The notes under the pieces are model-generated. The model was not told the DNA's origin. It made no database searches and saw only the letters and a list, made by a program, of their open reading frames with translations. A stretch of DNA of 20,781 nucleotides, taken from a virus. This document shows, piece after piece, positions 4,018 to 20,571 of this stretch; position 1 is the stretch's first letter; each line of letters begins with the position of its first letter. Position numbers and translations under genes: made by a program. Where the stretch lies: the IMG/VR virus record IMGVR_UViG_3300042565_002344, positions 1 through 20,781 of that record; one strand, 5' to 3'.

Positions 4018-4692
4018 ATGCCAGACTACTCATCCTTAACCACACAGATTAATCAATTTAAAACAGCAGCAACTGCTTTAATGACTAATGCTAACGACCC
4101 GCTAAATGCAAATGAATTGCAACTTGTAGGAGCGGCATTAAATCAGATGGGTAATACTTTAGGTGTTGCAGACATAAATAATGCTACTACCGACGCTCTA
4201 GCAACAATTGGAGCGGCAGGAACACTAGCAATTAATTCATTTAATAACAGCGTTAATGGAGAAAGATTAACTTTTGCAGAAGACGATATTGTAAATTTGC
4301 AAGGAAGAGTAGTAAATATTGAAGGGTTTGTTAATACAAACTCAGCTCAATATACAACTCTTCAGTCTACAGTATCAGCACTTCAAACATCTTTGTCTAC
4401 AGTGCCATCAAGTTGGAAACTAATTACAACAGCATATACAGCGGTTAATAATGACAGACTGCTTGTTCAAGCACCAGGGTCGGGATTAATTATAACATTG
4501 CCTCAAAGTCCTACTACAGGATTTACGGTTGAATTTGTAGACGCTTTAGGAACTGCAGCTACAACTAATTTTACAATTGCAAGAAATTCACAAAACATAC
4601 AAGGAGTTGCACAAAATCTTGTGTTTAACGTAAGCGGTGCTTATATTAGACTTATTTATGTAGATGCAACAAGAGGGTGGATAAGAGTATAA
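4018..4692 (+). CDS. Fibre protein: MPDY-type N-terminal domain plus tail-fibre C-terminal beta domain
   Basis: A 224-residue protein with three parts. Residues 1 to about 65 (starting MPDYSSLTTQINQFKTAA, with a conserved MGNTLGVAD) form a helical domain shared with the protein at 10454. Residues 75-130 are helical, Gln/Asn/Ser-rich and coiled-coil-like (LQGRVVNIEGF, LQSTVSALQTSL). Residues 133-224 (from WKLITTAYTAVNNDRLLV to YVDATRGW) match a C-terminal beta domain often seen in phage fibre proteins, where a polar strand pair is followed by TLPQSP and FTIARN. The start lies three bases after the upstream stop with only a weak ribosome site, so translation is probably coupled. It overlaps the next gene by one base. 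Likely a short trimeric fibre or attachment protein; specific function unknown. Confidence 0.7.
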   Translation: MPDYSSLTTQINQFKTAATALMTNANDPLNANELQLVGAALNQMGNTLGVADINNATTDALATIGAAGTLAINSFNNSVNGERLTFAEDDIVNLQGRVVNIEGFVNTNSAQYTTLQSTVSALQTSLSTVPSSWKLITTAYTAVNNDRLLVQAPGSGLIITLPQSPTTGFTVEFVDALGTAATTNFTIARNSQNIQGVAQNLVFNVSGAYIRLIYVDATRGWIRV

Positions 4693-5069: not shown

Positions 5070-5569
5070 TGTACGCACAAGTTATAGATGAAGAAATTGT
5101 AAGAGTTATTGATGAGCAATCTTTAAGAGAGATGTACTCATCTACACATTTTCCAGCAGTAATAACTCAAGAAGCACTAGAGGGATTTGATAATTGGTAT
5201 GTTGTAGTAGACTCTACAGATTTGCCAGAATTTGACAAGGCTTCTAAGAAATTAGAGTTTACTAGATATTTTAACGGAACATCAGTTGTCGGTCAATACT
5301 CAGTTGTTGATCTTTCAAATGCAGAAAAAGCTGCAGCAAAAGAATCAAGAAAAAGCGAAGTTAGATACCATAGAGACAATACTCTAAATGCAACAGACTA
5401 TCTTATGACATCAGACCTATTCAATTCATTTTCATCAACAGATCAAGAAAAGATAGTTGAATACAGACAGGCTCTAAGAGACTTAACAAGCCAAGCAGAT
5501 CCATTTAATATTACCTGGCCATCACTCGATATTGAATCGGTTACCCTAAAATATAAAGTAGAGATCTAA
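5069..5569 (+). CDS. Tail-assembly-chaperone-like protein (Phage_tail_APC type)
   Basis: A 166-residue protein that overlaps the previous stop by one base (TAATG), with an AAGGA site nine bases upstream. The C-terminal half carries the hallmark of the Phage_tail_APC family: RYHRDNTLNATDYLM, then EYRQALRDLTSQADP and ITWPSLD. In that family the pattern is RD..L..TDW followed by YRqALRDi and WP. The N-terminal half (MYAQVIDEEIVRVIDE, then THFPAVIT) matches the small domain that starts the protein at 14071. Such proteins are small tail-fibre or tail-assembly helpers encoded next to receptor-binding genes. Here it lies directly upstream of the predicted beta-propeller, which suggests it helps that protein fold or attach. 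The assignment comes from motif recall only. Confidence 0.65.
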   Translation: MYAQVIDEEIVRVIDEQSLREMYSSTHFPAVITQEALEGFDNWYVVVDSTDLPEFDKASKKLEFTRYFNGTSVVGQYSVVDLSNAEKAAAKESRKSEVRYHRDNTLNATDYLMTSDLFNSFSSTDQEKIVEYRQALRDLTSQADPFNITWPSLDIESVTLKYKVEI

Positions 5570-6483
5570 TGCCATTTCCGCCAGCCAGATACTCGACAGC
5601 AACGGGAGTAAAATCTTTTTTTCTAAGACAAGTTATCACAAAAGGCTACGTACTTGCTGGATATAGAAACAGCCAGCCATGGACAAGCGTTAACGAAGTA
5701 ACACACTCAACTGACACAACTATTGATCTGGGCGGCGCAATGAATAACTCTAGCGCATACCCAGGAGGTATGTGTGATGATACATATACATACCTGCTTA
5801 AAGCCAACAACGCTGTAGGAGGACAGAGCTCCAATATGAATAGGTATAACATGAGAACTAATGTATCTGTTCAATATGGAAACTCTCCATATGAGGTAGC
5901 AAATGCAGGAACACTTATGCACCACGAGCAATTTTACGCATACGGTAAGCCAGCTCAAGGGTCAGCAGCAATTATGAAATTTAATTTTACAACAGGAGCA
6001 TGGATGAGCTCACTAGGCGCATCTTTCGGAAACAACTCTCAAACAATGTCATCTTTTTATCATGAAAGATTTGGATACCATTACGGAGACGACAATGGTG
6101 TAAAATTTACTTTTGCAACAGAAACACAAGCCAATTCTCCCATGAATGGTGTTCACGGACAACAAAAAGGAATTTCTTCAAAGCTAGCATATGTGTACGC
6201 AGGTAACGAAGGCAACTACGCTGGAGGATATAACTTAAGAAGATTTAGTGTTGTTACAGAAACAAACGTAGGAAACGTATCAAAGCCCATTGGAAACTGT
6301 GGAGAAGAAGATTTTGATATGGGACAGAATTGGCAGTACATGCTCGGAAACTATAATGGAGAGCAAAACAATAGATCTTGGAGATTTAACTATGCAACAG
6401 ACTCTGGCTATGAAGGCGGAGGAGGAATGCAGTCTAAGGGAGTTCCAGGCAGAAGTTCTGCTCAAAACGGTTACCGTTCTTAA
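5569..6483 (+). CDS. Predicted beta-propeller (Kelch-like) virion protein
   Basis: A 304-residue protein starting at the ATG that overlaps the previous TAA by one base. It shows a repeat about 45 residues long whose core strand reads hydrophobic-x-F/Y-x-x-T-(E/D/G): around residue 44 (VTHSTDTTID), 90 (MNRYNMRTN), 136 (MKFNFTTGAW), 178 (VKFTFATETQ), 225 (RFSVVTETN) and 271 (WRFNYATDSG). Between these lie aromatic strands such as QFYAYG, RFGYHYG and AYVYAGN. Six regular blades of this size fit a beta-propeller. It has no signal peptide or membrane segment and is rich in Gly, Asn and Tyr. It follows a chaperone-like gene in the same way that the LamG-like protein at 14515 does, so a host-surface-binding role is likely. 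The ligand is unknown. Confidence 0.6.
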   Translation: MPFPPARYSTATGVKSFFLRQVITKGYVLAGYRNSQPWTSVNEVTHSTDTTIDLGGAMNNSSAYPGGMCDDTYTYLLKANNAVGGQSSNMNRYNMRTNVSVQYGNSPYEVANAGTLMHHEQFYAYGKPAQGSAAIMKFNFTTGAWMSSLGASFGNNSQTMSSFYHERFGYHYGDDNGVKFTFATETQANSPMNGVHGQQKGISSKLAYVYAGNEGNYAGGYNLRRFSVVTETNVGNVSKPIGNCGEEDFDMGQNWQYMLGNYNGEQNNRSWRFNYATDSGYEGGGGMQSKGVPGRSSAQNGYRS

Positions 6484-6498
6484 TAGATAGGAAATAAA

Positions 6499-7230
6499 AT
6501 GAGATACATAAACGATATAACATCGGATGTTTCTAATTACACAAAATCACAAAAAGACATTCTTCTTTACGCTACCAATAGACACTGGGGCACACCAACG
6601 TTTAAAATAGATAATTTTGTTGGTGGATCGCAGTTTACACCTTTTGGTAAATTAAGACAGCTTCTTTTAGAGCTTGGGGCAAGAGAAACCATGATCGTAG
6701 AACAAGAGCTAAAAATAGAAAGAGTTAAACTAGAAATTGAACTAGAAAAAGAAAAGATTAGCTTTAGCACTTCTCCTATTGAGATAAAAATTCATGAGCT
6801 TAATATTAAAGAAAAAGAAAGAACTCTGCTAAATCTAAAAAATGGAGTTAGTTTGGTATACGAAGAGCGAGATAAGTATATGATGCTAATTGATAAGTTT
6901 AATAATTCCGAAGAAGGAAAACTTCCAGATGGCCGACAAATTATGGACATCATTGGTAATTACGAAGAAGAAGAAAGACTTGAAGCAGAGCTTTGGGGAA
7001 TTAGACTTGGAGCACAGGCTGCTTATGATCTAATGTTTTACGGAAGAGTTAATGGCGGAAACATGGAAGCAATTGATCAGCTACCAAAAGAGGTTAGAGA
7101 AATAGCTCTTGAAACTGCGGTAGTTAAAGCAATTGAAACTAACAAGCATTTAGATGCACTTCAAATAGAAACTAGAAAAAGACTAGAATTGTCTGATTCA
7201 GAAGACGGCCTTTGGGAAGAAATTGAATGA
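6499..7230 (+). CDS. Coiled-coil protein of unknown function
   Basis: I do not recognise this 243-residue protein. It has a GGAAA-type ribosome site in the 15-base gap after the propeller gene. The N-terminus (to about residue 50) is mixed and contains NRHWGTPTFKIDNF. Residues about 55-110 and 115-135 are strongly helical and charged (EQELKIERVKLEIELEKEKI, then HELNIKEKERTLL), typical of a coiled coil. The remainder is acidic and helical, containing YEEEERLEAELW and EIALETAVVKAIE. No transmembrane segment or enzyme motif is seen. It overlaps the next gene by four bases (ATGA), so the two are probably co-translated. It marks the change from fibre genes to the non-structural island. It could be a scaffold, adaptor or assembly factor; none is favoured. 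Confidence 0.55.
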   Translation: MRYINDITSDVSNYTKSQKDILLYATNRHWGTPTFKIDNFVGGSQFTPFGKLRQLLLELGARETMIVEQELKIERVKLEIELEKEKISFSTSPIEIKIHELNIKEKERTLLNLKNGVSLVYEERDKYMMLIDKFNNSEEGKLPDGRQIMDIIGNYEEEERLEAELWGIRLGAQAAYDLMFYGRVNGGNMEAIDQLPKEVREIALETAVVKAIETNKHLDALQIETRKRLELSDSEDGLWEEIE

Positions 7231-7775
7231 TCTATTTTTTATTTAACCCAGAAGACAATGCTCCATATATAAAAGAGGTAGGGGTATGGGGTAATGTTTG
7301 TGTCGGTGCAATAGATGAAGTTTTATTATCTTATATAAAGCTTCCAACTTCAATATCAGTATCAGAAGAAATTGCATACGCATGGAAGTTTGCTGGAAAG
7401 TATAAGGGAGAGATCAGTGTTAGAGAAAATACTAACTCTTATGACCAATTAGACCCTTCTTTACTTAAGCCACATAAAGATAAGTTTAAATATACTTTAT
7501 CAGAAAAGGATAAGGAAAATGGCTTCCTTTTTCACAAAGCAGTAATGTACTTCATGTTAAACAAACATTATTATAATAAGTTTTTAATTTCAAAGTCTAC
7601 CCCTGAAGAATTAAGAGGCGCAGATTGGAAATCCGAAGAAGACTTATTAAAAGATAAAAACAAAATAATTGAAGAAATAAAGTCTTGCCAAGATTGGCAT
7701 GAGACTGGTATACTAATATCTAACAGATTCGGAATTGCCCATATTCCTGAAGCGCAGGCCAAAATAGATTTGTAG
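7227..7775 (+). CDS. Hypothetical protein
   Basis: A 182-residue protein whose ATG overlaps the upstream TGA (ATGA), with GGGAAG upstream acting as a plausible ribosome site. I do not recognise the family. The N-terminus reads MIYFLFNPEDNAPYIKEVGV, which looks like short beta strands. The middle and C-terminus are charged and mostly helical (EEDLLKDKNKIIEEIKSC), with a conserved-looking ending around WHETGILISNRFGIAHIP. No signal peptide, membrane helix or cofactor motif is visible. The stop is followed four bases later by the U32-methyltransferase gene, whose ribosome site AGGAAA overlaps this stop. Tight coupling with both neighbours suggests a shared process, but the sequence alone does not say which. 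Confidence 0.55.
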   Translation: MIYFLFNPEDNAPYIKEVGVWGNVCVGAIDEVLLSYIKLPTSISVSEEIAYAWKFAGKYKGEISVRENTNSYDQLDPSLLKPHKDKFKYTLSEKDKENGFLFHKAVMYFMLNKHYYNKFLISKSTPEELRGADWKSEEDLLKDKNKIIEEIKSCQDWHETGILISNRFGIAHIPEAQAKIDL

Positions 7776-7779
7776 GAAA

Positions 7780-9423
7780 ATGTTTAGCGTTCCATTAAAC
7801 CCAAAGTTAAACGAAAAGCAAATGTCTGATTTTATTCAGTTTTTAAAAGAATATAAACAGTACATTTACGATTTTTATTTTACTTGCAGAATACCCCCGT
7901 TTACTCAAGATGCAATGGGAGATGTATTTGAGGGCCAAGAAGAAGACTACGACTATCTAATTAATTTGGCGCTATATGTGCAGTCCGAAACTGGAGTTCT
8001 AGCTTCAGCAGTTTTTAATAATACAGAAGTAAGACCTTCTCAACAAAATCTAGATCTATTTATTAAATCTTTTGCTTCAGTTTACGACGCAGGAATTCGA
8101 TCCGCAACAATACCTCACACGCACTGGATGGCTACAGGGCAAATTAAAAAAGCGTTTCCAGAGCTTTTTGTAAAGAATACAATTCTTAGAAATGTATCAG
8201 AGCCTAGAGATATTGAAAAACTAGCAAAAGCTGGCTTTGACTATATTAATTTAGACCGTGATCTAATGCGTGACCACGAAAAGCTTAAGCGTTTTAAAAA
8301 AGCCAAGCAGCAGTATGGAGTAAAGCTTTCGCTTTTAGCTAACGAAGGATGCTACGGCGGGTGCATAATGATGGATGAGCACTATCAATTCAATAACACC
8401 AGAACAGATGGACCTCAATATTTTAATGACCCTATAAGCAGGGTTTCCTGCCCAAAATGGGACCATGAAGACTTTGCCGTATCTTTAAAGACAGCTAATT
8501 TCCCACCTTGGAGAGAAGATTGGCAGGAGTTTATTGATGACTTAGGTATTGATGTTATTAAGATGCATGGTAGAGAATCACACACCAGGCTCAAAGAAAC
8601 CATGGATATAGTCAGGAGATATGCCAACAATGAAGAAATTTTATTTGACAGCTTTAATGATTTTATTGAAGAGACTAATATGGTTGACAAACCAATTACC
8701 GTCTGGCGTAATAAGATCAAAAATTGTAAATTTGATTGCTGGGATTGCGGCTATTGTGACAAAATAATGGCTGTCAAATATGGAAACCACATAAGCCCAA
8801 AGGTTGCTATTGTTGCACAGCAATTAGTTGACTCAGTAAACAATCCAATAGAAATTAATATACCAGGATTAACATCTACAAGAGTTCAATCTTTAATTAA
8901 TGGTCTGGCTAAGTCGTCTTCTAAATACCTCGAAATTGGTTCTTATCAGGGTGCTACAGCCGCTGCTGCATTAAGTGGTAACAATATACATGCATACTTT
9001 GTAGACACGTGGCAGGATGCCCCACAGGCCGTAAGAGAAGAATGGGAAACTCCAGAGACCAATTCCCTTGAAGAATTTAAAAAGAACATAGAGCCTTATA
9101 AAGGAAGCAACAAGGTCTTTATATCTAACTCAGATATGTTTAAGGTTAACGTTAAAAGCATCTCAGACATAGATCTGTTTTTTTATGACGGACCACATGA
9201 TCTTGAGTCTACAAGAAAAGCTGTTAAGTATTATTCGCCATCATTTGCTAATCAATCTATTTTAATATTTGATGATGCAAATTGGACGGAAGTGGTTCAA
9301 GGGGCACATAAGGGAATAGTTGATTCTGGATTAAAAATATTGTATAGTAAGAAAGTGTTAAATGCACTTGAGTCAGACACCGAGTGGTGGAATGGGCTAT
9401 ATATAGTAGTAGTAGAAAAATAA
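7780..9423 (+). CDS. U32-peptidase-like Fe-S TIM-barrel protein fused to a class I SAM methyltransferase
   Basis: A 547-residue two-domain protein. Residues 1 to about 330 fit the U32 family: alternating strands and helices, ANEGCYGGC (Cys191, Cys195), Cys224, and the late signature WREDWQEFIDDLGIDVIKMH followed by Gly264-Arg265. Cys36 could be a fourth cluster ligand, as in UbiV. Cys316, 320, 323 and 326 form a separate CX3CX2CX2C group. Residues about 365-547 are a Methyltransf_24-like domain: motif I Glu385-I-Gly387-x3-Gly391, acidic Asp409 in FVDTW, DGPH at 470-473 and FDDANW at 497-502. Characterised U32 proteins (UbiU/V, TrhP, RlhA) support oxygen-independent hydroxylation, so hydroxylation followed by O-methylation is a reasonable inference. 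The substrate is unknown. It overlaps the membrane protein gene by one base. Confidence 0.7.
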   Translation: MFSVPLNPKLNEKQMSDFIQFLKEYKQYIYDFYFTCRIPPFTQDAMGDVFEGQEEDYDYLINLALYVQSETGVLASAVFNNTEVRPSQQNLDLFIKSFASVYDAGIRSATIPHTHWMATGQIKKAFPELFVKNTILRNVSEPRDIEKLAKAGFDYINLDRDLMRDHEKLKRFKKAKQQYGVKLSLLANEGCYGGCIMMDEHYQFNNTRTDGPQYFNDPISRVSCPKWDHEDFAVSLKTANFPPWREDWQEFIDDLGIDVIKMHGRESHTRLKETMDIVRRYANNEEILFDSFNDFIEETNMVDKPITVWRNKIKNCKFDCWDCGYCDKIMAVKYGNHISPKVAIVAQQLVDSVNNPIEINIPGLTSTRVQSLINGLAKSSSKYLEIGSYQGATAAAALSGNNIHAYFVDTWQDAPQAVREEWETPETNSLEEFKKNIEPYKGSNKVFISNSDMFKVNVKSISDIDLFFYDGPHDLESTRKAVKYYSPSFANQSILIFDDANWTEVVQGAHKGIVDSGLKILYSKKVLNALESDTEWWNGLYIVVVEK

Positions 9424-10340
9424 TGGAAATCACAACATCTTTAATTACAGATAATCAACAGTATTTGTTGCTACTTGCAACAGTTATGGGGCTGTCCTTT
9501 TGGGCAAAGAAAACACAAGTATTCCTGCCAGTATATAAATTTATTGCAGATAAAGTAAAGTCAAAGAGAGCAGTTGTTGCTTTAATTTCTTTAATTTCAG
9601 GAGTGCTCCCAATCAACGGAAGAGCTTCAGTTTCTGCTGGAGCCCTAGATACAATTGCTCCAAATAATGAAAAAAGAAAAGTCTTTGGAATTATTGATTA
9701 TCTTTCAACCCATCATTACTACTTCTGGTCTCCATTAGAGGCAACAGTTCTTGTACCAATGGCTGCTTTAAGCATTTCTTATTGGGAGTTCATGGGAAGA
9801 ATTTGGCCTCTTCTTGCTACAGCTTTAATTGTAATTTTTTATTATATATTTAAGATTGTAAAAGAAGATGAGGTGGAAATTAATATATCTAAATCCATAG
9901 CACCTTCAACGTGGAAAGAAGACAGAAAGCAAATCAAGTCCTATGCAACAACCTTGCTATTTGTCGGACTAGTTATAATTCTAAGCAATATTGTAAAAGC
10001 AAATTTTGATCAAATCAATGCTTGGGTAAATGGCGCACATGATAATGGTCTACTAGTTCTAGTTGCAGTTGCAGGATTCCTTGCAAGCTTTGCATTAGGC
10101 TCAAGCGGTAAGTTTGCTGGTTTCACATCCCTATCCGCTACAGTTTATGGCATAGACTATTTGCCATTGTTCTTTGCAATAGATTATGCGGGATACATGC
10201 TGGCCCCAACTCACAAATGCCTTGTCATCACCAAGTCATATTTTGACACTCCGCTAAAGAAGCACTACAAGGCAATTTTTGCCTTGGTCCTGCCAATTGT
10301 TCTTGTGGGAATATTGACCTATTTAACCATAGATAAGTAG
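9423..10340 (+). CDS. DUF401-like polytopic membrane protein (putative permease)
   Basis: The start is taken as the ATG at 9423 overlapping the upstream TAA by one base; a GTG at 9384 would extend it 13 residues into the previous gene. The 305-residue product has about eight hydrophobic segments (near residues 13-27, 49-63, 99-119, 121-137, 170-190, 208-226, 238-259 and 284-303). Two features recall the DUF401 family of integral membrane proteins, related to ion and carboxylate transporters: SGVLPINGRASVSAGAL near residue 59, and APTHKCLVITKSYF near residue 261, comparable to the family's SPVHLCLVLT motif. It is shorter than the roughly 400 residues I expect for that family. A transport role is inferred and the substrate is unknown. 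It is the last gene before the 113-bp regulatory gap. Confidence 0.6.
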   Translation: MEITTSLITDNQQYLLLLATVMGLSFWAKKTQVFLPVYKFIADKVKSKRAVVALISLISGVLPINGRASVSAGALDTIAPNNEKRKVFGIIDYLSTHHYYFWSPLEATVLVPMAALSISYWEFMGRIWPLLATALIVIFYYIFKIVKEDEVEINISKSIAPSTWKEDRKQIKSYATTLLFVGLVIILSNIVKANFDQINAWVNGAHDNGLLVLVAVAGFLASFALGSSGKFAGFTSLSATVYGIDYLPLFFAIDYAGYMLAPTHKCLVITKSYFDTPLKKHYKAIFALVLPIVLVGILTYLTIDK

Positions 10341-10453: not shown

Positions 10454-10786
10454 ATGCCAGATTATGCAAGTTTAACGTCCCAAGTAGAGTTATTCAAAAC
10501 TAAGGTAGCCGCCCTCAGCGGTTCTTCGCTTGGAGCACAAGAATTGGTTTACCTAGCTAAAGCAATTGAATCAATGGGAAATCTTTTGGGAGTCAACGAC
10601 GTATTGGCAGCTACAAACACCAAGCTCAACGACATCTCAACTGCTGTAACTGGCGCCGTAACAACAGTGTCATCCGCAGGAAGTACACAAGTAGCAGCAG
10701 TCGCTGCAGCAGGAGCAACACAGGTAGCAGCTGTTGCAAATGAATTAAACAACTTTACAATCTATCAGAATATGGGAGTAATATAA
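10454..10786 (+). CDS. MPDY-type short fibre-associated protein
   Basis: A 110-residue protein with a strong AGGAG ribosome site. Its first 65 or so residues align with the N-terminus of the protein at 4018: MPDYASLTSQVELFKTK here against MPDYSSLTTQINQFKTA there, then MGNLLGVND against MGNTLGVAD, and similar ATxxxLxxI spacing. The C-terminal part is an Ala/Val-rich imperfect repeat (GSTQVAAVAAAGATQVAAVA) that should be helical. It lacks the C-terminal beta domain of its paralog. As first gene after the promoter-like gap it opens the second fibre cassette, as the paralog opens the first. Likely a virion adaptor or base for a fibre. No enzymatic motif is seen. Confidence 0.6.
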   Translation: MPDYASLTSQVELFKTKVAALSGSSLGAQELVYLAKAIESMGNLLGVNDVLAATNTKLNDISTAVTGAVTTVSSAGSTQVAAVAAAGATQVAAVANELNNFTIYQNMGVI

Positions 10787-11124: not shown

Positions 11125-12120
11125 ATGTCACAAGTTTCCAACACTACAAGTTCAATTTATTTGCCAGGACTAACTACAACAATCAATGCTGCCGTAACAC
11201 AGGGACTACAGACTGGTATTACAGCAGAAGCGATTGCTTCTGGTGGTGTAAGCTCAATGTTCATGCCTCTTGAAACAAGAATTTATTCTTCTTCAAACTG
11301 GACACGTCCAGCAAACACAGGACCAGTTATTAAACTTGTTCTTGTCGGTGGTGGAGGTTCAGGTGGGTCTGGGCACTCTTGGTCACACAATGGATCTGGT
11401 GGCGGCGGAGCAGGACAACTTATTGAAAGATGGTTAGATATTTCTTCAATACCAGTTGGAGGAACTATTCCAGTTACTATTGGAAACGGTGGGCCAGCAG
11501 TTTCTGGAAACTCAAACGGAAACAATGGAGCAAACTCTTCATTTGGTGTAAACGGAAACTCATACTATTGTATTGCATACGGTGGAGGCGGAGGAGGATA
11601 TCCTTACGGAACTGGTAACAATGGAAACTCTGGAAGCATGGGACCTGGCATGGGCAATCAAAACGGCGGAGGCTCAGGCGGAGGCGGAGGCGCAGGAGGA
11701 GATTGGCAATATGGCGCAGCAGGCGGAGGCGGAGGCGCAGGAGGCGCAGCAGGCCCTGGAAGAAACACTACTTCAAGCAACGGTACAGGTTCTCCAGGAT
11801 ACCAAGGTGGATTTGGTTGGGGACCAGGAGCATCTGGTGGAGCACCAGGATCTAACCACAGTTGGACTTCATGGATTGGAGTTGGCGGTTTCGGCGGAAT
11901 TGGTCAATATGGAATTGCAGGCGGAGGCGGCGGAGGCGGCGGAGCAGGCGGCGGAGGCTCATGCGGTGGCGGAGCAGGTGGCTCACCAACAACTGATAAC
12001 TCAGGTGGAGAAGGCAGAAACGGAACAGGATCTGGTGGTGGTGGAAATTCTCACTCAAACGGAGTCGGCAACAGAGGAGGTTCTGGCGTAGCTATTATTA
12101 CATACTACGTTAAGGCATAA
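11125..12120 (+). CDS. Glycine-rich tail fibre adhesin, copy 1
   Basis: A 331-residue protein with a strong AAAGGAG ribosome site. Residues 1 to about 65 hold an N-terminal domain (SIYLPGLTTTINAAVTQGL) leading to the widespread fibre motif SSSNWTRPANTGPVIKLVLV. The remaining three quarters are extremely Gly/Ser/Asn-rich, with runs such as GGGGGGGAGGGGSCGGGAGG, and end VAIITYYVKA. Polyglycine segments of this type form stacked polyglycine-II helices in the receptor-binding adhesin gp38 of Salmonella phage S16, so a tip adhesin role is a sensible inference. It is a paralog of the protein at 12655: the first 95 or so residues and the last ten are conserved and the glycine-rich body has diverged. 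The local G+C rise follows from GGN codons. Confidence 0.7.
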   Translation: MSQVSNTTSSIYLPGLTTTINAAVTQGLQTGITAEAIASGGVSSMFMPLETRIYSSSNWTRPANTGPVIKLVLVGGGGSGGSGHSWSHNGSGGGGAGQLIERWLDISSIPVGGTIPVTIGNGGPAVSGNSNGNNGANSSFGVNGNSYYCIAYGGGGGGYPYGTGNNGNSGSMGPGMGNQNGGGSGGGGGAGGDWQYGAAGGGGGAGGAAGPGRNTTSSNGTGSPGYQGGFGWGPGASGGAPGSNHSWTSWIGVGGFGGIGQYGIAGGGGGGGGAGGGGSCGGGAGGSPTTDNSGGEGRNGTGSGGGGNSHSNGVGNRGGSGVAIITYYVKA

Positions 12121-12401: not shown

Positions 12402-12655
12402 TGTCAAGAGTATGGGCACTATTAGTAGACAACATTATAGGAAATGTAATTCTTGCAGAAGAAGATTTTATTGAATCTCATCCAGATTTTTCAGGATTAG
12501 ATCGGATTGACATTACAGACTATGACCCACAACCAGGAATTATGTGGGTACTAGAAGACAATAAGTTTAAGGCACCAGAATCAGTAAAACCAAAACCAGA
12601 ACACCTTGAGCTTGACCCAGTTAACAGTGTTTACGAAATTGAGGTAATATCATAA
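12401..12655 (+). CDS. Small fibre-associated protein
   Basis: An 84-residue protein coupled to both neighbours by one-base TAATG overlaps and preceded by GGGAGG. It opens MSRVWALLVDNIIGNVILAE, which looks like two strands of a small domain. It continues with an aspartate-rich ITDYDPQPGIMW segment and VLEDNKFKAPESV, a pattern resembling small phage proteins with 'P.PG..W' followed by 'F..P'. It shares this layout with the preceding 92-residue protein, so the two may be divergent relatives. It lies directly before the second glycine-rich adhesin, suggesting a helper or connector role. No enzyme motif is visible. Confidence 0.55.
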   Translation: MSRVWALLVDNIIGNVILAEEDFIESHPDFSGLDRIDITDYDPQPGIMWVLEDNKFKAPESVKPKPEHLELDPVNSVYEIEVIS

Positions 12656-13590
12656 TGGCAACATACGGAACAATTAATCAGATATACGTACCAGGACTAG
12701 ATGCTCAAATTTTAGCATCAACAACAGCGCTTTCAACATCTATTGCAATTCCATTAATTGCAGCAAATCTTTCAGGTTTTTATAATGCATATGAAGTGAC
12801 ACTTCTAAGCGGAGGTTCATGGACACGTCCAGCTAATAGCGCACCAAACATAGAAGTAACACTTGTGGGCGGAGGCGGCGGAGGCGGATGTACTAACGGC
12901 TCAACAAACCACGGTGGTGGTGGAGCAGGACAGCTTTTAAGAAGAATGCTAAACATTTCTTCAGTTCCAGTCGGAACAGGAATTTCTGTTGGTATTGCAA
13001 ACGGTGGAACATGTAATCAACAAGGTGGAAACTCAACATTCGGAACATCAGGTCAGCCATTCTATATGGTTGCATACGGTGGAGGATCATCACAAGGAAA
13101 CGGACAATCTGGAGATTGCGGACCAGGAGCAAACAATATTACAGGAATTGGCTCAGGCGGAGGCGGACAAGGTGAATGGGTTAACTCATGGGGTGCTGGC
13201 GGTGGAGGCGGTGGAGCAGGCGGAGCAGGACATCAAGCCAATACTCACTTTACAAGCTCTGGAGGATACTCAGGATACTTCGGTGGTTCAAGAAACTCAT
13301 CAGAAGGGTCATCAGGCGGAGGTCCAGGATGGGCTAATAGTAATGATTCAGGAAGAAGAGCTCAGGGTGGTTCAGGTGGACCAGGTCTTTACGGTCTTGC
13401 AGGCGGAGGCGGGGGAGCAGGAAGAGGAACTGGTGGAGCAGGATCTTGCGGAGGCGGTCAAGGACACGGAGATTACATTGGAACTCCAAGAGCTGACGCA
13501 ATGCCAAACTCTGGCTCAGGCGGCGGAGGCGGCGGAGGAAACACAGGCGGTTCAGGAATCTGTAAAATTACCTATTGGGTAAAAGCTTAA
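12655..13590 (+). CDS. Glycine-rich tail fibre adhesin, copy 2
   Basis: A 311-residue paralog of the adhesin at 11125, starting at an ATG that overlaps the upstream TAA by one base, with GAGGT upstream. Conserved with copy 1 are YVPGLDAQILASTTALSTSI, SGGSWTRPANSAPNIEVTLV, GGGGAGQLLRRMLNISSVPV and the C-terminal KITYWVKA. The middle is Gly/Ser/Asn-rich with several GGGGGG runs and clearly different in detail from copy 1. It probably folds as polyglycine-II helices around exposed loops that bind the host, as known for the S16-type adhesin. Conserved ends with a divergent core suggest alternative binding specificities. Frame-shifted open frames inside the glycine repeats are not genes. Confidence 0.7.
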   Translation: MATYGTINQIYVPGLDAQILASTTALSTSIAIPLIAANLSGFYNAYEVTLLSGGSWTRPANSAPNIEVTLVGGGGGGGCTNGSTNHGGGGAGQLLRRMLNISSVPVGTGISVGIANGGTCNQQGGNSTFGTSGQPFYMVAYGGGSSQGNGQSGDCGPGANNITGIGSGGGGQGEWVNSWGAGGGGGGAGGAGHQANTHFTSSGGYSGYFGGSRNSSEGSSGGGPGWANSNDSGRRAQGGSGGPGLYGLAGGGGGAGRGTGGAGSCGGGQGHGDYIGTPRADAMPNSGSGGGGGGGNTGGSGICKITYWVKA

Positions 13591-15245: not shown

Positions 15246-17627
15246 ATGTCATACGCTCCTATTAGATTTGCAGGGCCCTCACTAGTTCCAGCATCTCCAG
15301 CCAAAATATACACGGCTGTATCAACTATAATTATTAAAGAGTTTACTGTAACAAACTTCAGTGGCTCAACTTTGCCTTTTAGTATTTTCTTATTAGGGGA
15401 AAATGGCAATCAGGTTATTAATCTTTATAACATTAACAGATCAAGTTTAGACCCATACACTCTTTATGGAAATGTAAATGTTCCAAACAATACAACATTA
15501 AAGCTTGAGCACTCATTAATTTTAAATGCTGGAGAATCAATTGCAGCAGTTACAACAACGCCAAACTGTTTTTCATTAACTATATCTGGTGTTGATCTTT
15601 CTGGAACTCTTTCAGGAGGCGGATCAGGTGGAGGAACAACTGGAGCATCTGGTGCAGGATACTCTGACGTAGTTTCTATAACAACTAATCCAGTAACTAC
15701 TGGATCAAAGGTATTCTATGTTAATAATAGCGGTGCGTATACAGCAGGGCAACGTGTTCGTGTAATTAATCCACTTGCACTAACAACATATGTTGAAGGA
15801 ACTATCACACAAGTTGTAAAGAATGTCAGCATTACAGTAGCAGTAGATAGAACAAATGGAACAGGCACCTATTCTGATTGGGTTTTTGCAGTAGCGGGTA
15901 TCCCAGGTACTAATGGAACTGTAGGAGTAAATGGGGCAGCAGGCCCTACAGGCCCTACAGGCCCTACAGGCTTAGTAGGAGCAACTGGACCAACTGGCTT
16001 ACAGGGTCAAGGGTTAAGACTTGAAAATGTTGTTGCTGACGTAGCATCTTTACCAGCAACCGCAGCTTTAGGTGCAGCTTTTATTATTTCTTCAACGCAA
16101 GAAATTTATATTTATAATGGAACCGCATGGCAAAATGGTGGAACATATAAAGGACCTACAGGTTCTACTGGCTCAACAGGTGCAACAGGACCTACAGGAT
16201 CTACTGGTGCCACTGGAGCTGCAGGAAGATCTATTAATATTAAGGGAACAAAGGCAAACGTTGCTGCACTACCTTCTTCAGGAAACTCTTCAGGAGACTC
16301 ATGGATTGTATTAACAGATTTACATCTTTATGTTTGGGATGGATCTGCTTGGCTTGATGCTGGTCAATTCCAAGGTCCAACAGGTGCAACAGGACCAGCT
16401 ACAATTGCAGTTGGAACCGTATCTTCAACAGGACCATCAGGAACAACTACTGTAACAAACTCAGGAACTGGTACAGCAGGAGTCTTTGACTTTGTTTTAC
16501 AACAAGGTCCAACAGGTGCAACAGGACCAACTGGAAACGCTGCAACAGTAGCAATCGGAACAATAACTTCAACAGGTCCAACTGGAGTACCTTCTGTTAC
16601 AAATGTCGGAACATCAACTGCAGCATTACTTGATTTTATTTTAAAACAAGGAATAACAGGCCCAACAGGACCAGCAGGACCAACAACAATAACTTTAGGA
16701 ACAATAACAGCAACAGGACCAGAAGGCTCTCCATTAATTACAAACTCTGGAACATCTACAGATCTTGTTTTAAATTTTACTCTTAAACAAGGTCCAACAG
16801 GTTTAGCTGGTCCAACAGGACCAACAGGAGCCACAGGCGTCACAGGCGTCACAGGCCCAACAGGAGTAGGAGTCACTGGTCCAACAGGTACTGCTGGAGC
16901 TGACGGTACTGGAGTTTCAATACTTGGATCTTATGCTACATTTTCAGCACTGCAAGCAGCACAACCCTCTGGTCAAACAGGAGACGCTTATTTAGTTTCT
17001 GGAGAACTTTATGTTTGGGCAGGATCCTCATGGACAAATGTTGGAAGCATTCAAGGTCCAACAGGAGTCACAGGCTCAACAGGCCCAACGGGCCTTAACG
17101 GTGCAACAGGACCAACAGGCGCAACAGGCGCAACAGGCGCAAATGGATCAAGTATTCAAGGAGCAACAGGACCGACAGGTGTAGCTGGACCAACAGGTCC
17201 AACAGGAGCCACGGGAGCAACAGGTTTTGGCTCAACAGGCCCAACAGGACCAACAGGAGCAGACGGACCTGCAGGTGGCCCAACAGGACCAACAGGAGCA
17301 ACGGGAATAAGTATTACCGCTAATTATCTTGTTACAAGCCCACTAGGCGGTAGCTATAGCGTAAATGGAACTTCAGGAAATCCAACATTAACCTTATTAA
17401 GAGGCCACACATATGTGTTTACAGTAAACGCTGGAGGCCACCCATTCTGGTTGCAAACAACAAGTGGAGCTTACAACTCTGCTAATACATATGCAACTGG
17501 AGTAACAAATGGCGGAGAAGATGTGGGCGGTATTACATTTACCGTTCCAGCAAATGCACCAAACACCCTCTATTATATTTGCCAATTCCATGCAAGCATG
17601 AACGGAATCATTACCATAATCGGTTAA
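15246..17627 (+). CDS. Multi-domain collagen-like tail fibre with C-terminal cupredoxin-like domain
   Basis: A 793-residue fibre preceded by AAGGGGG. Domains in order: residues 1-130, a beta-sandwich related to the protein at 10788; 138-222, a fibre domain ([20 protein letters not shown]); Gly-X-Y collagen; globular modules near 255-300 and 328-376 ([16 protein letters not shown]); three copies near 385-513 of a module like [20 protein letters not shown]; more collagen; another YVWAGSSW module near 556-602; collagen to about 688; then a cupredoxin-like domain (688-793). That domain holds His732 (GHPFW), Cys779, His782 and Met785 (CQFHASM), the ligand set of type 1 copper sites. Trimeric collagen-like shafts with globular tips are typical phage fibres. 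Copper binding is inferred, not shown. Confidence 0.75.
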
Positions 17628-17653: not shown

Positions 17654-18724
17654 ATGAAAATAGCAGTATATACAATTGCTTTAAATGAAGAGCAGTTTGT
17701 TGAACGTTGGTATGAATCTGCAAAAGATGCTGACTATTTGTTAATTGCCGATACAGGGTCTACAGATAAAACAATAGAGATAGCCGAATCCCTTGGAATA
17801 AATGTATTTAAGATATCAATTAATCCATGGAGATTTGATGATGCTCGTAATGCATCGCTTGCTTTAATTCCCGACGATATTGATTATTGCATATCCTTAG
17901 ATATGGACGAAGTTCTTTCTGAAGGCTGGAGAAAAGAAATGGAGTCTTTAGAAGGCTCTAATGTAACCAGACCAATACACACACTTGTTACTCATATATC
18001 TGAGATTGGACAAGAAGGAACAGAATTTGATGCATTAAGAATGCATGCAAGACACGGACATAGATGGAAGTTTCCAATTCATGAGTCTGTTTCATTTTAC
18101 GGTATAGAAGAATTAAGAAAAAAGATTGATGTAAAAATATATCATCTTCCAGATAACGACAAATCTAGAGGGCAATACCTTGCTCTTTTAGAAATGGCAG
18201 CAAAAGAAGATCCGCTAAGCGATAGATGTGCACATTACTATGCTCGTGAATTATTTTATTACGGTAGATACGAAGAGTCAGCGGCTGAATTTAAAAGACA
18301 CCTATCTTTAGAATCCGCTTTCTGGAAGCCAGAAAGATGTGAGTCAATGAGGTATCTTGCCAAATGCGAACCCCAAGCTAGGGAGTATTGGTTAAGAGCA
18401 GCAATTGCAGAATGCCCAGAAAGAAGAGAACCTTTTGTAGACTTAGCTCAATATTTTTACGAAGAAAAAGATTGGCATAAAGTAAAAGAATATTCAGAAC
18501 TTGCTTTAAACATAAAAGAAAAATATCTAGGATATTTTTGTGAATCAGATGCATGGGGATGGAAGCCTCACGACCTACTGGCCCTTGCAAACTACAATCT
18601 AGGAGATTTTGAAGAGGCTTCAAGGCATGGAGAAATAGCTGTTTCTTTATGTGAAGACCAAAGACTACACGACAATCTTGCCTTCTATCACGATGCTCAG
18701 AATCTTAAAAGTGGTATAATTTAA
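17654..18724 (+). CDS. GT2 glycosyltransferase with C-terminal TPR-like helices
   Basis: A 356-residue protein with an AGGGAAA ribosome site. The N-terminus is a family 2 glycosyltransferase: [19 protein letters not shown], then Asp33-T-G-S-T-Asp38 in the nucleotide-sugar fold, FDDARNASL, and a DxD metal motif Asp83-M-Asp85-E in ISLDMDEVL. From about residue 195 it becomes helical and TPR-like ([60 protein letters not shown]). No membrane segment is present, so it is probably cytosolic. It sits between two collagen-like fibre genes rich in Gly-Pro-Thr, so glycosylation of fibre threonines is a sensible inference; host surface modification is an alternative. Its last bases contain a promoter-like TGGTATAAT. 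Confidence 0.75.
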
Positions 18725-18726
18725 AA

Positions 18727-18727
<1 letters not shown>
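18712..18727 (+). promoter_or_regulatory. Extended -10 promoter-like site, possible leaderless start
   Basis: TGGTATAAT (18712-18720) is a perfect extended -10 element. The expected transcription start, about seven bases beyond, falls at the A of the ATG at 18727. No Shine-Dalgarno sequence precedes that ATG. No -35 box is evident, and chance occurrence in AT-rich DNA is possible. Confidence 0.35.

Positions 18728-20567
<1,840 letters not shown>

Positions 20568-20571
<4 letters not shown>

Follow-up and report, generated by a model that had tools for sequence, protein, structure and literature searches.

Identity and distribution of the fusion gene

The window analysed here, a virus record of 20,781 bases, contains a gene in which a U32-like domain appears to be joined to a methyltransferase, which raises the questions of whether such a fusion is real, to which families its halves belong and on which substrate the protein could act. 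The single open frame reported in the first-pass annotation was confirmed, and the motifs quoted there were located in it, namely, GCYGGC at residues 190-195, C224, WREDWQEF at 244-251 and GIDVIKMHGR at 256-265. The gene and its predicted domains are as follows:

7780..9423, + strand: U32-like/Methyltransf_24 fusion gene with an ATG start, 547 amino acids; PHROG 1458, T4-GC 354 of cyanophages
7780..8799, + strand: N-domain, residues 1-340, putative divergent U32-like TIM barrel (profile chain, hhalign, structural model)
8872..9420, + strand: C-domain, residues 365-547, class I SAM methyltransferase of the Methyltransf_24 type (Pfam, PDB sequence match)

A comparison of the window with L006 gave 176 synonymous and 50 nonsynonymous codon differences, with 202 of the base differences at third codon positions and a similar picture in the two domains; the fusion frame is under strong purifying selection in both halves.

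Among the fetched contigs, 193 of 198 open reading frames with the N-domain also carry the C-domain; of the remaining five, four are cut by contig ends and one is the stand-alone bacterial protein L124. In annotated phage genomes, tblastn matched the fusion protein in 124 records, and in 121 the match covered 80% or more of the query. Apart from a Thermobifida phage, in which the methyltransferase part was matched and nothing else, the records (123 of 124) carry the name Synechococcus phage, cyanophage or Prochlorococcus phage. The fusion is present at full length in more than 120 isolate cyanophage records, where the sequence under the matches is annotated as ‘hypothetical protein’, in several isolate annotations as T4-GC 354. 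The PHROG 1458 profile was matched over its full length (E 5e-164, residues 46-547, profile positions 1-519 of 519), and the members of PHROG 1458/T4-GC 354 in the 123 cyanophage records, with the same two domains and 42-44% identity, are the same in kind as the window protein. The search of viral sequences for the same two-domain architecture, proposed in the first-pass annotation, thus found it in more than 190 fetched loci and 123 isolate records, and this recurrence rules out an assembly artefact. The fusion is real, conserved and carried by many large T4-like phages. The statement that no phage example had been described holds for the open-access literature searched, in which no description of a phage U32 protein was found, but the gene is common in phages, where it is simply unannotated; what is new is the identification of the two domains and the module linkage described below, not the family of sequences, which is old and common.

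All four carrier isolates tested have genes of the psbA type, but no such gene was found in the 19 environmental contigs, among them those of L162, L170, L173 and L074; four of the 19 contigs are 140-166 kb long. The environmental carriers may have non-cyanobacterial hosts; the window phage is a relative of cyanophages.

Assignment of the N-domain to the U32 family

Direct searches with the N-domain gave no U32 match, and the cut-off of the Pfam U32 model (PF01136) was not reached. The earlier assignment of this half to U32 is correct through intermediates, but the relationship is remote. The bridge was provided by a profile including L124 (about 41% identity); this profile retrieved proteins in genomes of the Desulfobacterota type, the phylum of a Syntrophaceae MAG, with E-values down to 1.7e-23. 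In the resulting bridge group, A7, three of the four distinct representatives scanned lie above the PF01136 cut-off. In hhalign comparisons, the phage family matched A7 at 99.7% over 311 columns, A7 matched UbiU, UbiV, TrhP and RlhA of E. coli at 98.1%, and the merged set matched the E. coli U32 proteins at 97.8%; directly against the four E. coli proteins alone the phage family gave a weak 13%, the match being strong with intermediates only, and reversed and column-shuffled controls stayed below 1%. The A7 profile, built from bacterial U32 relatives alone without phage sequence, recovered the N-domain of the window with E 1.5e-22 over frame residues 5-355, and its matches among 6,755 open reading frames were limited to the phage fusion family and the partner of L124. 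A7 also matched the solved U32 structure 5d88 with E 3.5e-17. The N-domain is accordingly homologous to U32 through intermediates.

The AlphaFold2 model of the N-domain (pLDDT 87, pTM 0.87) has a predicted U32 TIM-barrel fold; in Foldseek, 5d88 had the highest TM-score among the 50 matches listed and was fifth by E-value, behind MTHFR in the top position. An unrelated TIM barrel, suggested by MTHFR and by a match to the xylose isomerase-like AP_endonuc_2 family (E 0.027), was ruled out, since the chain of sequence profiles ends at U32 and a U32 protein gives the best TM-score listed. Judged by its sequence, the N-domain is a divergent U32 branch, outside the family both by the Pfam cut-off and by the published cysteine motif.

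Two observations concern other U32-type genes of phages. A protein of Escherichia phage OLB35 that is named ‘Peptidase’ (BFVD entry A0A3G3MCS7) was matched by the N-domain model with E 4.6e-10 and TMt 0.72, and is possibly another phage U32-type protein. The UbiU/UbiV matches in phage records were mostly to short unannotated records or to a bacterial contig filed as phage, and were therefore left out of the count of phage U32 genes.

Conserved cysteines and the putative Fe-S site

The N-domain contains seven cysteines, all of them candidate Fe-S ligands, encoded as follows:

8350..8364, + strand: codons of C191-x3-C195 (NEGCxGGC), invariant
8449..8451, + strand: codon of C224, invariant
8725..8757, + strand: codons of C316-x3-C320-x2-C323-x2-C326 at the end of the N-domain, kept in A7

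In 113 non-redundant sequences C191, C195, C224, C316, C320, C323 and C326 are invariant except for gaps, and the whole seven-cysteine pattern is also present in A7. Most U32 families have the motif CX6CX15CX3/4C, with variants in UbiU and UbiV (PMC6747719), and equivalents were also sought for E162, C170 and C177 of TrhP (PMC6599085). Neither this motif nor the UbiU/UbiV variants were found in the N-domain, where the cysteines have another spacing; in the alignment of the A7 and E. coli U32 profiles the NEGC segment lies roughly opposite the stretch before the first U32 cysteine, and the spacing differs. The pattern would be consistent with one cluster and an extra site, or with two clusters. 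Like UbiU/UbiV, TrhP and RlhA (PF01136), to which its profile similarity via bacterial intermediates is remote but significant, the N-domain has conserved cysteines, a K-x-x-GR block and, by prediction, the TIM-barrel U32 fold. Unlike these proteins, it falls below the Pfam cut-off, differs in the number and spacing of cysteines, and belongs to a single chain fused to a methyltransferase, without a second U32 subunit.

The catalytic motif of the characterised U32 proteins is not clearly kept, which favours a reading in which the U32 fold with its Fe-S site is a binding or redox module and the methyltransferase, as the sole enzyme, modifies a virion protein or glycan; the location of stand-alone relatives of the methyltransferase domain near a glycosyltransferase gene in L039, L040, L042 and L044 points the same way. 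The seven cysteines together with E189, H201, W244, D247, K261 and R265, which are essentially invariant in the 113 sequences, argue instead for an active site, and this reading is decidedly improbable.

Methyltransferase domain

The class I methyltransferase recognised earlier in the C-terminal half stands: the domain matches PF13578 (Methyltransf_24) with E 5e-10 over residues 384-499, at 40.5 bits against a cut-off of 26.3, and the match is common to all 36 aligned members. The residues of the SAM-binding motif, G387, G391 and D409, are invariant. The domain also has an invariant acidic site:

9187..9282, + strand: codons of D470 and D498-D499-x-N501

TrmR is the best PDB sequence match of the C-domain (E 1.4e-4), and the alignment spans the TrmR metal site. 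In this weak match the TrmR counterparts of D470, D498 and D499 are positions 133, 159 and 160 (D133 and D159; the Asn position is D499 here), which we take to be the metal ligands of TrmR. A metal site of Asp, Asp and Asn is found in Rv0187, an enzyme of the COMT type (PMC6543040). The Pfam family of TrmR, Methyltransf_3 (PF01596), was matched by one of the 36 members, with E 0.0016, so the domain is placed outside it. Its sequence fits an O-methyltransferase with a metal site.

Gene neighbourhood and linked module

The location of the fusion gene in a tail cluster, noted in the first-pass annotation, is supported in the form of a tail-fibre setting. Three genes lie upstream:

5569..6483, + strand: phrog_1417, uncharacterised fibre-region protein
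6499..7230, + strand: phrog_1409 (T4-GC 353), coiled-coil-like protein
7227..7775, + strand: phrog_1604, uncharacterised, directly upstream of the fusion gene in the window

Neighbours were counted in non-redundant phage loci, 97 of which had 3 kb of sequence upstream and 95 enough sequence downstream. The gene of phrog_1409 is upstream in 95 of the 97 loci and that of phrog_1417 in 92. In isolate genomes the U32-like domain, phrog_1409 and phrog_1417 were each found in 123 records with an identical breakdown of 77/38/8, the record counts being compared and the identity of the record sets being taken from them; the neck gene gp14 is present in about 463 cyanophage-named records. In S-ShM2, plastocyanin, gnd and other genes, several kb in all, separate the fusion gene from phrog_1409, and all three genes are kept. 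Given the equal counts, the proximity in nearly all loci and the retention in S-ShM2, the U32-methyltransferase gene, phrog_1409 and phrog_1417 behave as an accessory module beside the fibre genes, although part of the linkage may reflect shared phage ancestry. Phrog_1417 is diverged, at 26-33% identity in most matches listed; it lies among tail-fibre genes and may be an adhesin.

Directly downstream, at 9420-10340 and overlapping the stop codon of the fusion gene, is a gene for a predicted membrane protein similar to DUF401/TIGR00529 (phrog_14035). This permease-like DUF401 gene is present in 69 of the 95 loci with enough downstream sequence.

Bacterial relatives

The nearest stand-alone relatives of the N-domain are encoded in an operon at L124:5303-12195, in a Syntrophaceae MAG, and L233:16-7238, in a genome of the same order. 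The N-domain is encoded there once or twice, together with a short second U32-like protein (97% to A7 in hhalign), an acetyltransferase, a membrane protein and CysD/CysNC-like genes, and the operon looks like an undescribed pathway. The uncharacterised proteins of A7 and of L124/L233 share with the N-domain the seven cysteines, NEGC, K-x-x-GR and C-x3-C-x2-C-x2-C, but have no fused methyltransferase, and in L124/L233, unlike in the phages, the operon also encodes a second U32-like protein and includes genes resembling those of sulfate activation. Other bridge-group genes were found beside AMP ligases with a molybdopterin oxidoreductase, subunits of the xanthine-dehydrogenase type or a canonical U32 gene. 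At L228:5930-9058 a U32-like gene, a methyltransferase and a type III polyketide synthase are consecutive, and at L229:6107-8752 radical SAM and U32-like domains are fused in one frame of 881 amino acids.

In bacteria, these contexts point to oxidative tailoring of small molecules. A host metabolite, such as a quinone or a lipid, could be what the phage protein hydroxylates and O-methylates. UbiU and UbiV, which work on ubiquinone precursors (PMC6747719), offer a parallel, as do the AMP ligase, xanthine-dehydrogenase-type and polyketide synthase neighbourhoods and the L124/L233 operon. A small-molecule substrate would leave the all-or-none link with phrog_1409 and phrog_1417 unexplained, and we consider it rather unlikely.

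Proposed function

UbiU and UbiV form a heterodimer, and Bacillus subtilis requires TrhP1 and TrhP2 together. The precedent invoked in the first-pass annotation is borne out by the literature: yrrM (trmR), yrrN and yrrO form one operon, the U32 proteins help to make ho5U, and TrmR methylates it to mo5U (PMC6599085). The U32 proteins TrhP and RlhA are required for RNA hydroxylation, and Phytophthora and Phaeodactylum have fusions of TrmR with TrhO, an unrelated hydroxylase (PMC6599085). From the trmR-trhP operon and the TrhO-TrmR fusions, hydroxylation and O-methylation of one substrate is a natural proposal by analogy, and this part of the earlier suggestion is retained; its RNA variant is disfavoured, because the gene sits in an accessory module with a coiled-coil-like and a fibre-region protein. 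In that variant a tRNA or rRNA pyrimidine would be hydroxylated and O-methylated during infection, as U34 is by TrhP1/TrhP2 and TrmR in B. subtilis. The systems just cited and TrmR as the best structural sequence match speak for it. Against it, no RNA-binding domain was found in the fusion protein and no tRNA in the window, the methyltransferase is outside the Pfam family of TrmR, and the linked genes are those of the fibre region, not RNA genes; modification of RNA is unlikely. With yrrM-yrrN-yrrO the fusion shares the pairing of U32 with an O-methyltransferase and the aligned acidic metal-site positions, but it is one gene where B. subtilis has separate genes, its methyltransferase is of the Methyltransf_24 family with weak similarity to TrmR, and the Asn ligand of TrmR is replaced by Asp.

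We favour, at somewhat less than even probability, a bifunctional hydroxylase-methyltransferase acting on one substrate, most likely a component of the module. Starting from the computed domain assignments, the fusion, its conservation and its gene linkage, we infer Fe-S binding, hydroxylation, O-methylation, the order of the steps and the substrate as follows. The seven cysteines of the N-domain would probably bind one or two Fe-S clusters, and the N-domain would probably add a hydroxyl without O2, by analogy with UbiU/UbiV, TrhP and RlhA. The fused SAM-dependent, probably metal-assisted methyltransferase would then methylate that hydroxyl, and the product would be a methoxy group on one substrate. 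Since the fusion gene and those of phrog_1409 and phrog_1417 are inherited together as one unit, this substrate would most likely belong to the module, being either a protein of it or the decoration of that protein, modified while virions are assembled. The bacterial relative whose neighbours are a methyltransferase and a type III polyketide synthase is a point in favour of two coupled steps. Against them, UbiU/UbiV and TrhP1/TrhP2 are paired, whereas the phages have one U32-like open reading frame each, no second one being present in four isolate genomes and four long contigs; the cyanobacterial hosts, too, produce oxygen, and a cluster sensitive to it would be unexpected there. The more specific proposal, in which an O2-independent enzyme would place methoxy groups on an adhesin of the virion or on the decoration of that adhesin, is unlikely.

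If true, this more specific proposal would mean that a U32-type enzyme can use protein as its substrate and that phages have a system for post-translational methoxylation. U32 proteins are a recently recognised class tied to oxygen-independent hydroxylation, the mechanism of which is unsettled, and with a single-chain fusion to a methyltransferase that would consume the product, available in cultured phages with tractable hosts, both the substrate and the sequence of reactions can be tested directly. The abundant T4-like cyanophages also gain a hypothesis of function for a conserved module that is entirely unannotated.

Other genes of the fibre cluster

Two large proteins with collagen-like G-P-T/G-A-T repeats are encoded at 15246-17627 and 18727-20571; such repeats were ruled out as the substrate, being present in three of 113 loci. 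Between these two fibre genes, at 17654-18724, lies a gene for a family 2 glycosyltransferase with a TPR-like C-terminus (phrog_13126), the homologue of which is the glycosyltransferase gene mentioned above for L039, L040, L042 and L044. The genes at 4018-4692 and 10454-10786 have similar N-termini (MPDYSSLTTQINQFKT and MPDYASLTSQVELFKT, respectively) and are apparently diverged paralogues within the fibre cluster. Two glycine-rich proteins that resemble each other are encoded at 11125-12120 and 12655-13590, each gene being overlapped by a long open frame in another frame.
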